Below, piece after piece: positions 25,476 to 30,996 of a DNA stretch of 35,339 bases; position 1 is the stretch's first letter; each line of letters begins with the position of its first letter. The notes under the pieces were generated by a model, which was not told the DNA's origin, made no database searches, and saw only the letters and a program-made list of their open reading frames with translations. The DNA is taken from positions 1 through 35,339 of the forward strand of contig CAMPBE010000013.1 of NCBI GenBank assembly GCA_946636615.1. The letters are read 5' to 3'. The DNA is from an uncultured bacterium (lineage in GTDB: Bacteria; Cyanobacteriota; Vampirovibrionia; Gastranaerophilales; Gastranaerophilaceae). A program made the translations under genes and the position numbers.

Positions 25476-25504
25476 TTGACATTAGTGCCAAATAATGTTA
25501 TCAT
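25476..25504 (+). promoter_or_regulatory. Promoter of the prepilin-cutA operon
   Basis: A perfect TTGACA -35 box (25476-25481), a 17-base spacer and TATCAT (25499-25504) form a strong sigma-70-type promoter. The predicted start near 25511 leaves the AAGGGAG ribosome binding site at the very 5' end of the message. Confidence 0.8.
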
Positions 25505-25521
25505 GTGATAAAGGGAGTCGA

Positions 25522-26202
25522 ATGAAAAAAATATTTGGATTTACTTTATCAGAGTTGGTTATAGCCTTGGCTATTGTTGGTGTTATAGCTGCAGTAACTG
25601 TCCCAGGAGTTGTTGGACATTACCAGAAAGATTCTCAAGCTCTTATGATTAAAAAAGTGTATATGAATCTTCAGGAGAATTTGGCTAAATTGCAAACTGA
25701 AAAAATAGGTCAGGATTTGTATAACTCTACTTTAGGAACTTCTGGTACTCCGGCTAATATCGCTGACTTTTTTGATAATTATTACAGCGTTAAACGTAAC
25801 TGCGCAAATAATTTGCAGCCTTGTTTTGAAAGCCAATATAAAAGTTTAAATAAAACCTCAAGTAATTTTAGGACTTCAAATATAGGTGGAAATTGTTATT
25901 CTGTTCAGTTAGCTGACGGAACGGCAATGTGTATTATTCCTGCAGTTAAAGATGAAGAACAGCCTGCTATTGTATATGTTGATGTGAATGGCAGCGAAAA
26001 ACCAAACATTGGTGGCAGGGATATGTTTAAATTGTTTATATATGAGGATTTTTCTGTTGATGTTGTTCCACCGTCTGTAATTGCTGATGGAACAGCTAGT
26101 ACAGCAAGAGAAACAAAATTTAATGATGAATGTAGAGCTTCTGCATTTGGCTCTGGATGTTTTGGAAAAATTTTAAATGATGATTGGAAAATGAATTATT
26201 AG
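25522..26202 (+). CDS. Type IV prepilin / type II secretion pseudopilin-like protein
   Basis: A prepilin signal is clear: a short basic leader MKKIFG, cleavage expected after Gly6, then FTLSELVIALAIVGVIAAV with Phe at +1 and Glu at +5. The hydrophobic helix anchors the subunit and packs in a filament. The C-terminal half has several cysteines and the motif VDVNGSEKPNIGGRDMF, which resembles the acidic metal-binding loop of major pseudopilins. The protein ends DDWKMNY. I choose ATG 25522 (AAGGGAGTCGA upstream); the longer frame starts before the promoter ends. It is 226 aa and followed by a paralogue 18 bases on. No assembly ATPase or platform gene is in the window. Confidence 0.88.
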   Translation: MKKIFGFTLSELVIALAIVGVIAAVTVPGVVGHYQKDSQALMIKKVYMNLQENLAKLQTEKIGQDLYNSTLGTSGTPANIADFFDNYYSVKRNCANNLQPCFESQYKSLNKTSSNFRTSNIGGNCYSVQLADGTAMCIIPAVKDEEQPAIVYVDVNGSEKPNIGGRDMFKLFIYEDFSVDVVPPSVIADGTASTARETKFNDECRASAFGSGCFGKILNDDWKMNY

Positions 26203-26220
26203 CAATTAGAAAGGATTAAG

Positions 26221-26844
26221 ATGTTGAAAAGATTTGCTTTTACTTTGACAGAATTGACAGTTGCACTAGGTATAATAGGTGTTGTATCTGCGTTAACTAT
26301 TCCTGCAATTGTTCATAATTATCAGGCAAATGCTTATACTGTAAAATTGAGAAAAGTTTTGAATGAAATTTCTGCTGCTGCAGATTTGTTAATTACAGAA
26401 GAAGGTAAGCAACATTTGGATCAAACTTCATTGTTTACTTCCCCAACGGGCGTTGCGGATTTCTTTAATAATAAATTTAAAGTAATAAGAACATGTCCTG
26501 CATCTACTACCGGATGTTTCCAAGGTACTTATAGGACTATAAATGGAGGAAGTTCTTCTTTTAGATGCGGCAATGCTCATTATATGTTGGCTAACTCAGC
26601 TTCAATTTGTCCTTTATTGTTACCTAGAGCTAATCATACATCATTGTTATTGTTTGAAATTGATACTAACGGACCGGATGCTCCAAATATCGGTGGCAGG
26701 GATATGTTTTATGTCGCTTTAGATTCTGATGCGCAAATAGATGTAGCTCCCCAGACAGCAAGGAGTGGTAGTTGTACTAATAGCTTTGCAGGGCAGGGAT
26801 GTTATCAACGTTTGATTAATAATAATTGGAAAATGAATTATTAA
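26221..26844 (+). CDS. Second type IV prepilin / pseudopilin-like protein
   Basis: This is a paralogue of the preceding prepilin. The leader MLKRFA ends in Ala, not Gly, at -1; then FTLTELTVALGIIGVVSAL with Glu at +5. It shares VADFFNN, a cysteine-bounded segment, the DTNGPDAPNIGGRDMF motif and the C-terminal NNWKMNY, but the core is otherwise divergent, as expected of two subunits of one filament. The start has AAAGGATTAAG upstream. cutA begins in its stop codon. Prepilin peptidase processes a -1 alanine less efficiently than glycine in well-studied systems, so this may be a minor subunit; that is inference. Confidence 0.88.
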   Translation: MLKRFAFTLTELTVALGIIGVVSALTIPAIVHNYQANAYTVKLRKVLNEISAAADLLITEEGKQHLDQTSLFTSPTGVADFFNNKFKVIRTCPASTTGCFQGTYRTINGGSSSFRCGNAHYMLANSASICPLLLPRANHTSLLLFEIDTNGPDAPNIGGRDMFYVALDSDAQIDVAPQTARSGSCTNSFAGQGCYQRLINNNWKMNY

Positions 26845-27152
26845 TGATTGTAATTTTATGTACTACAAATAGCATTGAAAGTGCTAAAAATATTGCTAAT
26901 ACTTTAATAAAAGGTTGTAATGCTGCGTGCGTTAATATCGTTCCAAGAGTTGTTTCTATATACAAATGGAATGATAAAATAATAACGGATGAAGAATATT
27001 TGCTTATTATTAAAACTAAGAAGAAATTGTTTAGTATTGTTGAAGAAAAAATAAAGCAAATTCACCCTTATGAAACTCCTGAAATTATTTCATTTAATAT
27101 TAAGAATGGTTCTAGGGAATATTTAGATTTTATTATTAACAGTTGTAATTAG
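26844..27152 (+). CDS. cutA: CutA1-family protein
   Basis: This is a small trimeric protein related in fold to PII signalling proteins, named for divalent-cation tolerance; its molecular role remains unclear in most bacteria. Visible family features are ILCTTNSIESAKNIANTLI, AACVNIVPRVVSIYKWNDKI and IIKTKKKLF, then HPYETPEIISF. At 102 aa it is normal. I choose ATG 26844, which overlaps the preceding TAA by one base; the longer frame would start inside the prepilin gene. Translation is probably coupled to the prepilins. Its TAG overlaps the convergent protease-like gene's TAA in TTAG. Confidence 0.93.
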   Translation: MIVILCTTNSIESAKNIANTLIKGCNAACVNIVPRVVSIYKWNDKIITDEEYLLIIKTKKKLFSIVEEKIKQIHPYETPEIISFNIKNGSREYLDFIINSCN

Positions 27153-30094
27153 CTTCTTTTTTCTACAGCTATTCCTTTTTTTGTTGCTTCTATTATTCTT
27201 AGAATAACATCATCACATTCTTTTAGTTCTTTTTGTTTTTCGGGTGGTTGTTTTTGTTTCCATTCGTTCAGTGCTTTTCTGAATTCATCACCATCAATGA
27301 TGCATTCTCCCGTACCAACACGCGAAGCATATTTTTCTGTAAATTCTTTGTTAAAATCTTCGTAAACTTCTGTTATTAAGTCGGATGTGATTTTTGCGTT
27401 GTTAAGTATAACTCGTTGATCTTCTTCAATAGTTTGTTTCATTTTGTCTGATAGTATATCAACATCGTATGCAGCCATTTTTCCTGTTTTTGCACCCATA
27501 CCCATAATGTTTACCATCGTTTCAGCTTCCTCTCTTGCAGATTCCATGTCTGCGGTAATACCCCATGAGCCATCGATGTCATAGAATCTGCTTTCTGCAG
27601 AATTGCCGCCAAAGCTGCAAACAATATCTGTAAATGCAAACTCAAAAGACCTTTCGGTATTGGTATCCATTCCGTGGTAAACTGCGCCGCCGTATATTCC
27701 TCTTGGATCTAAAGTTACAAAATTTACTTTTTGAGGTATGTGCCAAGGCTTTTGTTTGGTTTTTGCAAGGTTATTCATTACTTCTAAATTTGTTGCGTGA
27801 CCGCATTCATGTGATGCAACAATCTGTTTTTTGTGTGATTCCAGCTTGTCGATTGCAGGTCGGCCTGTTGTTAGCTGAAGATATGCTTCTGTGAGGTCTG
27901 CTTTATTTAAACTTTTGTTTCCTCGCTCAGATGCTACAGCTTTAGCTTTTTTAGCTAAATTTTGTAGATAAATGTAAGGGAAACCTGTTGTAATTTCTGA
28001 AGCATATTTTAAAATATTTTCTTTGTCAGGACCAGAAATTTTCAAATGTTGATCTTTGAATGCTTGTTCCAATATTTCAGCTCTTTCTTTTTTGTTATAA
28101 GCAGGTGATGAAACTTCTATTTTATCGACAAATTTAAATGATTTCATAGCTGCTTCCCCAATCAAGCTGGGGTCAGATACAGAACCTATAACGAGTATGT
28201 TTAGTCCTGCATTTTGTGCTTTATCCATTTCTCTTAATAGTTGAGCCATGGCTTTTTGATGATAATTTGATACCATTTCTCCAACAGAAAAGTATTCAAA
28301 GTTCTCAATAAACAATACTACAGATTTATTTGGGTTGGCTTCAGCCTGAGTTGTGACAAGAGAAAATAATTTCTTCATTGACTGTTCGGGAGATAAACCT
28401 GAACCAAAAAGATCAACGTCTTTTGTTCCAAAGTCCATTGTGTTAACTTCTACATACGGAACTTTTGCATCTCCTGCTATTGCTTTTGCCGTATATTTTC
28501 TTCCTCCTCCGGGTGTTCCGTCTTGAGAATATATTATTATCCCCTTTGTTCCCAATTTTTTAGATTTAATTTGTTTTACAAGGAATTCAGCTTCTTTTTT
28601 TGTTGAAGTTTTTCCTTTTAAATCTCGTATGTGTTTTTTTGTGTCATATATTACTTCTATAGAATTGTCTTCATTAGACTTCTTTAAAAGAGAGGTTGCT
28701 TCTTTCAGGTAGTTGTTAACATCAGTTTCGGATATTTCTTTTTTGTTGATGTTGTAGCTTGCAATTTTTTTCATTAGATCAATAGTTTTGGCAGGAAAAA
28801 CTCCGTCAAGCTGTGCTGATGCAAATGCTGCTTTTTCAATTGCAGCTTTTGAAAATGGAATTTTTACATCTTTTTTCATTATATGAGGGTTCTCTTTGAA
28901 AAATTTAACCATTTGTTCAGAATTCATTCCCGGTAATGACGTCTCTTGAAAATCGTTATATATTCCAACATTCATAAATGAATAATAGTTGTTTTTTGTG
29001 TCATAGAATAAGAATTTTACGTTTGCAGGTTTGTCTTTAACTCCATAGATAAGTTCTGCAGATATTGCAACTTGTGTTGCTCCATTACTTGTTTTGTCAT
29101 CTCCTGCAAGTTTTAAAAAGATTGAAGAAGGGTCTGCAGCAATAATATATTCATGCTCTTTGTCTTTTTTTGCTTTATTGATTGTATCGACTAGGTATTC
29201 AGCATTTGCGTACTGATTTAGCTCAATATACTTTAATTTCTTATTGTCACTTTTATCTATATGTCTTTTTAATGTATCTAAAAATAAATTTGGGTTTTCT
29301 TTGGCATAGTCATAAGTGATAAACATATCTGTTCCTAAAGACAGATTTTTCAGTACATTTTTTGCTTTGTCGTCATAAAATGAGAATGGGAAAAATTCAT
29401 CAGGTTCTTTTTCGTTTCTCATAACTTTATCGTTTATATCATCCATAAATTTATCTAAAAATTTAACCAGATTGTCATTAGAATCATCGCTTGCTGTTGC
29501 GCCAAGGACAGTTGATGGGGTTATTGTTTCGTTTTCTTTTGTTCTGTAACTCCAAATATAATCGATTAATTCATTTGATAACTTTGATTCTTTTGATTTG
29601 TCAAAATCTTCCGGTTTATTTTTGTCTAAAATTTCCATAGAATTTTTTACATAGTTTTCAATTACCGGTTTTACTTTTTTTCTTATGTCTTTATCTGAAA
29701 AAATAGAATAAGTTACGCTATCTCCAATCAAACTAACCATTTCCGGAGCTTTGTCCGATTTATAATCTTTAATTCCATTATCAAGATCGTTCATATATTT
29801 ATAAGTTTCATTAATTCCGTCATAGACAACATGCATAGGTGTTACGGTGTTATATTCTGTTTCTTTTGAAATATCAAATAAGTGATTAAATAATGCCTTG
29901 CAAGAGGAATCTGCATACATCATTATGTTTTCCAATTTCTTATCATTACTGCTTTTTTTGCTGTTTCCGCCTGAAAATGTAACAGTATCTAAAGGAACTG
30001 TTTGAAAACTTCTATTTGTTGTTTTATTAAAGTTATTTTTGTTGTTTGATTTATAGCTGTTAAATGCAGGAATAACGCTAATTTTTGTTATCAT
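27149..30094 (-). CDS. Clp-N / degenerate AAA / M41 peptidase chimera (FtsH-related)
   Basis: Four regions can be read. (1) Two Clp N-domain-like repeats, about 60-95 (LFNHLFDISKETEYNTVTPMHVV) and 172-205 (LSNELIDYIWSYRTKENETITPSTVL). (2) Residues 250-465 end like the ClpB first AAA module (AIEKAAFASAQLDGVFPAKTIDLMKKIASY) but show no P-loop. (3) An FtsH-like AAA module about 510-745: Walker A is GTPGGGRKYTAKAIAG (526-541), where FtsH has GPPGTGKT, and Walker B is VLFIENFEYF (593-602), where FIDE is expected. (4) An M41 peptidase with HECGH at 762-766 and a candidate third zinc ligand Asp849. No N-terminal membrane helices are seen, unlike FtsH. The zinc-ligand motif looks intact; ATP hydrolysis looks impaired. 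GGAGAAAAGTAT supports the start. Confidence 0.8.
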   Translation of the reverse strand: MITKISVIPAFNSYKSNNKNNFNKTTNRSFQTVPLDTVTFSGGNSKKSSNDKKLENIMMYADSSCKALFNHLFDISKETEYNTVTPMHVVYDGINETYKYMNDLDNGIKDYKSDKAPEMVSLIGDSVTYSIFSDKDIRKKVKPVIENYVKNSMEILDKNKPEDFDKSKESKLSNELIDYIWSYRTKENETITPSTVLGATASDDSNDNLVKFLDKFMDDINDKVMRNEKEPDEFFPFSFYDDKAKNVLKNLSLGTDMFITYDYAKENPNLFLDTLKRHIDKSDNKKLKYIELNQYANAEYLVDTINKAKKDKEHEYIIAADPSSIFLKLAGDDKTSNGATQVAISAELIYGVKDKPANVKFLFYDTKNNYYSFMNVGIYNDFQETSLPGMNSEQMVKFFKENPHIMKKDVKIPFSKAAIEKAAFASAQLDGVFPAKTIDLMKKIASYNINKKEISETDVNNYLKEATSLLKKSNEDNSIEVIYDTKKHIRDLKGKTSTKKEAEFLVKQIKSKKLGTKGIIIYSQDGTPGGGRKYTAKAIAGDAKVPYVEVNTMDFGTKDVDLFGSGLSPEQSMKKLFSLVTTQAEANPNKSVVLFIENFEYFSVGEMVSNYHQKAMAQLLREMDKAQNAGLNILVIGSVSDPSLIGEAAMKSFKFVDKIEVSSPAYNKKERAEILEQAFKDQHLKISGPDKENILKYASEITTGFPYIYLQNLAKKAKAVASERGNKSLNKADLTEAYLQLTTGRPAIDKLESHKKQIVASHECGHATNLEVMNNLAKTKQKPWHIPQKVNFVTLDPRGIYGGAVYHGMDTNTERSFEFAFTDIVCSFGGNSAESRFYDIDGSWGITADMESAREEAETMVNIMGMGAKTGKMAAYDVDILSDKMKQTIEEDQRVILNNAKITSDLITEVYEDFNKEFTEKYASRVGTGECIIDGDEFRKALNEWKQKQPPEKQKELKECDDVILRIIEATKKGIAVEKRS

Positions 30095-30354: not shown

Positions 30355-30996
30355 ATGGATTTAGAAAACAAAGATGAATTAACTGTGGAAGAAACTGTTA
30401 CAGAGGCAACAGAAACTGCTGCTGAAGAAGCAGTTGAAGCTGTAGTAGAAGAAGAAAAACCTCGCAAAAGAGGTCGTGGTAAAAAACAAAAAATTGAAAC
30501 AACTGAAGAAAAACCTCAATCTGAATGGATTGAACGTGTTGTTCAAATCAGCCGTGTAACAAAAGTTGTTAAAGGTGGTAAAAAACTGAGCTTCCGTGCT
30601 ATCGTTATTGTCGGAAACCAGAAAGGACAAGTAGGTGTAGGTTGTGCGAAAGCTGCTGAAGTTATTATTGCAATTCAAAAAGCAATTGCAGATGGCAGAA
30701 AAAATCTTATTACAGTGCCTATTTTCAAAACAACTATTCCACATCCTATTACAGGAAGATCAGGCGCAGGTGCAGTTATGTTAAGACCTGCATCTCAAGG
30801 TACAGGTATTATTGCAGGTGGTGCAGTTCGTTTGGTACTTGAACTTGCAGGTATTGAAAATATTTTGGCAAAATCATTGGGTTCAAAAGCTCCTTTGAAT
30901 GCGGCTAATGCTACTTTAGAAGCGTTGAAAGCATTGACTCCGTTTAGTGATGTTGCTAAAAGACGTGGCTTAACAATGGCAGAATTGTTAAATTAA
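30355..30996 (+). CDS. rpsE: 30S ribosomal protein S5
   Basis: S5 helps form the mRNA entry site and maintains decoding accuracy. The double-stranded-RNA-binding-like core begins near residue 57 ([31 protein letters not shown]), and the glycine-rich loops [24 protein letters not shown] are intact. The first 55 residues are an added tail, acidic ([21 protein letters not shown]) then basic ([12 protein letters not shown]), not found in E. coli S5; total length is 213 aa. In most bacteria rplF-rplR precede rpsE; here a reverse-strand protease-like gene and a fresh promoter do. Confidence 0.96.

Follow-up and report, generated by a model that had tools for sequence, protein, structure and literature searches.

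Clp/Hsp100-fronted M41 proteins of Gastranaerophilales combine replaced ATPase motifs with a conserved zinc site

What does a protein do that joins the front half of a Clp/Hsp100 protein to the AAA module and zinc peptidase of FtsH, with the motor motifs replaced? The question is raised by a gene of an uncultured bacterium of the family Gastranaerophilaceae (assembly GCA_946636615.1), found in the 35,339 nucleotides of contig CAMPBE010000013.1 that were analysed here as one stretch, called below the window. The gene is a single ORF starting with ATG (27149-30094, minus strand, as are all features of the protein given below) and encodes 981 amino acids arranged as a leader, a Clp N-domain, a degenerate Hsp100 D1, an FtsH-type AAA module and an M41 peptidase. 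Only two Pfam matches exceed the cut-off, AAA (4.3e-12) for the FtsH-type module (residues 486-745, 27860-28639) and Peptidase_M41 (4.9e-11) for the peptidase domain (residues ~752-950, 27245-27841), which is also supported by FtsH structures. The C-terminal half aligns with apo-FtsH (3kds) over 414 residues, covering 485-943 of the model, with Z 30.6 and an rmsd of 3.1. Measured against FtsH, the protein has the M41 domain with HExxH and a third Asp ligand, and has neither a working AAA module (Walker A Lys, Walker B Glu, Arg fingers) nor the N-terminal transmembrane helix or helices: no transmembrane segment was found, the maximal 19-residue hydropathy being 1.14 versus 2.77 for the genome's own FtsH. 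The NCBIfam FtsH equivalog TIGR01241 is likewise not met, at 100.4 bits versus a 600-bit cut-off.

The front half is less accessible to sequence searches. Pfam Clp_N matched neither the window protein nor any of 13 orthologues, so that the Clp-like front lies below single-sequence thresholds. AlphaFold with 61 homologues gave the domain order Clp N-domain, Hsp100-type D1, FtsH-type AAA and M41 zinc peptidase; the full-length AlphaFold2 model built from these 61 sequences has a mean pLDDT of 85.8 and a pTM of only 0.53, which leaves the relative placement of the domains uncertain. Because VIA-align of the full model says little about the N-terminal half, residues 46-486 were folded separately, giving a model with pLDDT 91.3 and pTM 0.85. 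All 50 of the 50 PDB matches listed for this model were Clp/Hsp100 proteins (Foldseek, best E 4e-8; the same by VIA-align), the best VIA-align match being to Hsp104 NBD1 (Z 18.8, rmsd 2.9, 232 residues). Several alignments run in order from the Clp N-terminus to NBD1, for example that of 9rai_e (model 19-426 to chain 9-488), and their large rmsd shows a differently placed N-domain. In the list for the full model, tandem AAA proteins (Hsp104, p97, Rix7) align over residues 222-742, which suggests, at the level of predicted models, two AAA modules in series.

When the N-terminal half was compared, profile to profile, with 18 ClpB/ClpC-type Clp proteins of Gastranaerophilales, the N-domains matched each other (P 5e-5, or 5e-6 for the excised region) and so did the D1 modules (P 6e-5, or 1e-3 excised), the two matches being collinear; reversed controls reached 0.02-0.3. 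The Clp N-domain, a two-repeat helical structure (residues ~48-227, 29414-29953), thus rests on a cut-out match of P 5e-6 versus 0.02 when reversed, and on alignments of the half-model to ClpC, ClpA, ClpB and Hsp104 from their N-termini; the D1-type module (residues ~228-485, 28640-29413) rests on the VIA-align match to Hsp104 NBD1 and on a lid that matches the ClpB lid. In the relative L017, Pfam AAA_lid_9, which we take to be the lid of Clp D1 modules, is found above cut-off (1.6e-6) directly before the FtsH-type AAA module. As a class I Hsp100/Clp protein, the hybrid qualifies by its Clp N-domain, through structure and profile only and below the Pfam threshold; it does not qualify by a D1 with Walker A and B, the fold being present and Walker A absent in 102 sequences, nor by an Hsp100-type D2, whose position is taken by the FtsH-type AAA and M41. 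The original prediction had read the protein as Clp-N, a remnant like the first AAA of ClpB, an FtsH-like AAA and M41, and this dissection holds by AlphaFold, Foldseek, VIA-align and profile comparison; the separately folded N-terminal half has the Clp-N and AAA folds within residues 50-470 (pLDDT 91), so that the first of its two conditions for refutation did not come true.

How far the motor has gone was assessed from motif states, first in 62 distinct sequences and then, with the pattern already fixed, in 40 newly retrieved ones, many of which come from other genera. These counts come from related sequences and are not independent events; the point is invariance over a deep tree. In the FtsH-type module, Walker A is replaced by GTPGGGRK (residues 526-533, 28496-28519), the Lys being Arg in 62/62 and then 40/40 sequences; a 3-residue insertion precedes this motif relative to motor-intact relatives, and G529, G531 and R532 are invariant in the 102 sequences. 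Walker B reads FIEN (residues 595-598, 28301-28312), with Asn for Glu at 598 in 58/62 and then 38/40 sequences (96/102). In the pore-loop region (residues 560-571, 28382-28417), the YVG of intact relatives is replaced and about 8 residues are inserted. The Arg-finger site, RPGRF in FtsH, reads KSFKF here (residues 651-655, 28130-28144), and in most sequences both finger positions carry Lys or, within part of the 40-sequence set, are lost, with residual Arg at 651 in 2/102 and at 654 in 6/102. The pattern GxxxxGK[ST] is absent from D1 and from the FtsH-type AAA in all 102 sequences, its two matches falling in the peptidase part.

Since these substitutions are conserved and not random, one may imagine a non-canonical but working ATPase, in which Arg stands in for the lysine of Walker A and a further residue for the catalytic Glu. 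We regard this as very improbable, as the Walker A Lys, the Walker B Glu, the Arg fingers and the pore aromatic are jointly gone and D1 has no P-loop motif. Another reading keeps the pocket and drops the catalysis: the Arg/Asn site would bind a nucleotide or other anion without hydrolysis and thereby switch the peptidase on and off. The invariance of G529, G531 and R532, together with N598, exceeds the needs of a merely abandoned site, and LonC holds nucleotide without hydrolysing it (PMC3391209); there are no ligand data, however, and the residues could also serve folding or a subunit interface, so we hold this switch to be unlikely.

The zinc site shows the opposite pattern. HECGH (residues 762-766, 27797-27811) and Asp849, the third zinc ligand position (27548-27550), are kept, HExGH and the Asp together, in 61/61 and then 40/40 sequences (101/101). 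DPR, GGxxxE and GI are retained in these sequences as well, and the surroundings of the zinc site (DPR, GGxxxE, GIxxDM) are nearly invariant. The predicted models show preserved folds for the peptidase and for each of the AAA modules. That the protein is chiefly a substrate-holding chaperone or adaptor, with proteolysis secondary, would suit the Clp-N and D1 folds, which are those of the Hsp100 disaggregases, and the presence of lone Clp-N repeat proteins in the same genome, but such a role sits poorly with a full zinc site and neighbouring motifs conserved as for a working peptidase, and we consider it improbable. Those lone proteins are an observation in their own right: one of them, 452 aa long (L132:467-1822, G000:C21), has six Clp_N stretches without an AAA domain, and further genomes of the order encode similar proteins with lengths of 450-500 aa.

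The family was searched in 58 close genomes, in 286 genomes of the order Gastranaerophilales, in 292 of the phylum and by scanning 85,000 species genomes; this contig scan used two family-specific peptide patterns, and distant relatives elsewhere could escape it. Members above 560 bits occur in 87 of the 286 Gastranaerophilales genomes, in 17 genera that nearly all belong to one family of the order, and in the phylum sample all members above 560 bits fall within that same family. They measure 950-1060 aa and are almost always intact; one orthologue (L084:7968-11052) is split into two overlapping frames of 799 and 254 aa, through a frameshift or a sequencing error. By the Nei-Gojobori method, the window gene and that of L021 show a dN/dS of 0.03 in each of D1 and AAA, with dS saturated, and whole-gene values in other pairs are 0.05-0.13. 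The Clp-FtsH hybrid is thus a conserved family under purifying selection; a pseudogene is ruled out by dN/dS, and a lone decayed allele by a pattern common to 102 distinct homologues. The GTPGGGRK, FIEN and HECGH motifs and the Asp849 named by the original prediction are confirmed, and the tabulation of homologues that it proposed gave no family member with an intact Walker A; its word "decayed" has to be given up, the sites having been replaced by conserved alternatives that are fixed family-wide at a dN/dS of ~0.03-0.13.

A tree of the AAA and M41 parts groups the motorless sequences into a single clade (SH-aLRT 100), separate from FtsH and the soluble relatives; it stems from a quick search, and long branches meet near the base. 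Within the outer group of soluble AAA-M41 proteins, L016-L019 retain intact GxPGTGKT, FIDE and R-x-GRF motifs. With one motorless clade and motor-intact relatives outside it, the motor was probably lost once, and a soluble AAA-M41 protease probably came first, an order of events that is inferred. Two further soluble AAA-M41 groups were noticed (L086-L091, L020, L092, L093), one of ~750 aa with GPPGTGKT, the other of 820-900 aa, whose motor is altered in part (GxxGSGK, IDD or IND) and may be an intermediate state. The neighbouring cluster 35 (L048, L052, L071, L073, L080), considered as a paralogue, proved to be a DEAD/DSHCT helicase.

An invariant zinc site combined with the loss of the motor points to a protease that runs without fuel, an inference for which no activity data exist. 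We therefore favour, with a probability of roughly 0.55, a soluble, ATP-independent M41 zinc protease whose two AAA modules act as a static scaffold. What has been computed is the order of the folds, the state of the motifs, the conservation across the family, the purifying selection and the lack of a membrane anchor. The hexamer, the peptidase activity, the ATP independence and the role of the Clp N-domain are inferred, there being no biochemistry and a prediction of the monomer only. In such a particle, the M41 domains would form the cutting chamber, and the FtsH-type AAA ring with the Hsp100 D1 ring stacked on top would make a static barrel of two tiers, which governs entry into the chamber without pulling. 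Clp N-domains at the mouth would catch unfolded or adaptor-delivered substrates, and entry by diffusion would restrict cleavage to unfolded or short chains. The FtsH-type pocket, with its conserved GxGR loop, may still bind nucleotide structurally, as LonC does, without a hydrolysis cycle. The precedent is MtaLonC, whose AAA-like module has no ATPase activity, which forms a hexamer with six nucleotides bound without hydrolysis, and which degrades unfolded proteins without ATP (PMC3391209); it is by analogy with this enzyme that the same mechanism is inferred for the M41 hybrid.

Several points weigh against this reading: the invariant GxGR and Asn598 could mean an active role of the pocket, a sealed motorless M41 ring might admit little substrate, and, biochemistry being absent, the geometry of the zinc site is unmeasured and the ring is inferred from a monomer prediction only. 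A more far-reaching reading, possible but well short of even odds, is that of a new type of AAA protease, a soluble Hsp100-FtsH chimera whose two stacked AAA rings have changed from a motor to a passive or ligand-gated barrel; its invariant GxGR/Asn pocket would sense a nucleotide or other anion and gate a live M41 chamber.

The fuel could also come from outside, if the protein assembled with a working AAA partner that supplied the ATP motor, be it FtsH or, by way of the Clp N/D1 half, rings of the ClpB type. Mixed rings of active and inactive subunits are known from the plant FtsH12-FtsHi complex (PMC8197885, PMC8042743), and the genome encodes FtsH, two ClpB-like proteins and two ClpP. On the other hand, the D1 and Clp-N tiers would, by inference, sit on the face where FtsH meets the membrane, no conserved operon partner was found, the neighbours of the gene differing between genera, and a second soluble AAA-M41 protein is absent from the window genome, where the membrane FtsH is the sole other AAA-M41. 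We rate such a partnership unlikely without dismissing it. Among the functions offered by the original prediction, the ATP-independent soluble protease fits best, and the partner-driven one is less likely because of the missing second soluble AAA-M41 protein. A close ClpC orthologue was not found in the window genome (G000), where the best matches, ~50% identical, were to the two ClpB-like proteins; 18 of 21 searched genomes have a ClpC-like protein that Clp_N matches strongly, and the absence here may be an assembly gap.

Some features of the locus stand apart from these readings. A CutA1 gene (26826-27152, plus strand) converges with the protease gene, with a stop-codon overlap of 4 bases (27149-27152), and a tandem pair of pilin-like proteins with N-terminal methylation motifs lies at 25495-26844 (plus strand); other genomes, too, have such pairs close to their protease gene. 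The reading as a defence gene was rejected, with no PADLOC match. At 30355-30996, rpsE is not beside rplR; in this genome and its congeners the two lie either at a distance from each other or on separate contigs, so that the spc operon looks split genus-wide. An insertion of the protease gene did not cause the split, since rpsE and rplR are far apart or on separate contigs in 7/7 genus genomes with both found, including ones without the gene. The N-terminal leader (residues 1-47, 29954-30094) is predicted to be disordered (pLDDT <50) and carries the FxG motif DTVTFSGG (residues 36-43, 29966-29989), with F40 in 14/14 sequences and in at least 90% of 61. Short leaders ending in [VI]xFxG (e.g. 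DTVSFTG) also occur on unrelated proteins of the order, among them an adenylate-kinase-like protein and a DEAD/DSHCT helicase (loci with the leader, besides the window: L056:5334, L070:3324, L074:4759, L085:11126, L051:6817, L052:10912; L016-L018, L089, L090). The motif is present at residues 6-65 in 26/274 cluster representatives versus ~1-4% in segments farther along the chain, and may serve for sorting or processing as a signal peculiar to this lineage.

Compared with known systems, the hybrid shares with FtsH the order AAA then M41 and HExxH with a third Asp ligand, and differs by the lack of a membrane anchor, by replaced ATPase motifs and by the Clp-N and D1 added in front. With class I Hsp100/Clp proteins (ClpC, ClpB, ClpA, Hsp104), it shares the order and fold of the Clp N-domain and first AAA module, but its D1 lacks Walker A, an FtsH-type AAA stands in place of D2, and at the docking position of ClpP it has a fused M41 peptidase. 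Literature searches of open-licence papers found no description of a Clp-N/M41 fusion. The plant FtsHi proteins, named by the original prediction as a parallel, are FtsH relatives with one activity eroded and turn out to be the opposite case: they are membrane proteins whose peptidase motif is lost and whose ATPase is described as kept (PMC8197885), so that the definition of an FtsHi pseudo-protease is not met and its pattern is reversed. FtsH12 keeps HEXXH with a few ATPase substitutions, and a Clp front is not described for it (PMC8042743). With the LonC-like proteases the hybrid shares, by sequence, an AAA part without ATPase motifs beside an intact peptidase site, the other half of that definition, a hexamer that degrades unfolded protein without ATP, being inferred by analogy; MtaLonC (PMC3391209) is the closest mechanism, granted that activity of the hybrid is inferred, and differs in having a Lon-type peptidase and not M41, an unrelated N-terminus and one AAA-like module where the hybrid has two. 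Nearest by sequence are the soluble L016-L019 of Gastranaerophilales, with M41 and FtsH-type AAA and, in L016-L018, a D1-like region and the FxG leader as well; their motor motifs are intact, and no Clp-N match was found in them. Proteases of the FtsH family are regarded as machines driven by ATP, and in the eroded members known so far it is the peptidase and not the motor that was lost, the reverse of what is seen here. The Clp/Hsp100-fronted hybrid is a natural experiment on the role of the AAA ring in a protease unable to hydrolyse ATP, and its motor-intact relatives in the same bacterial order supply the comparison set.
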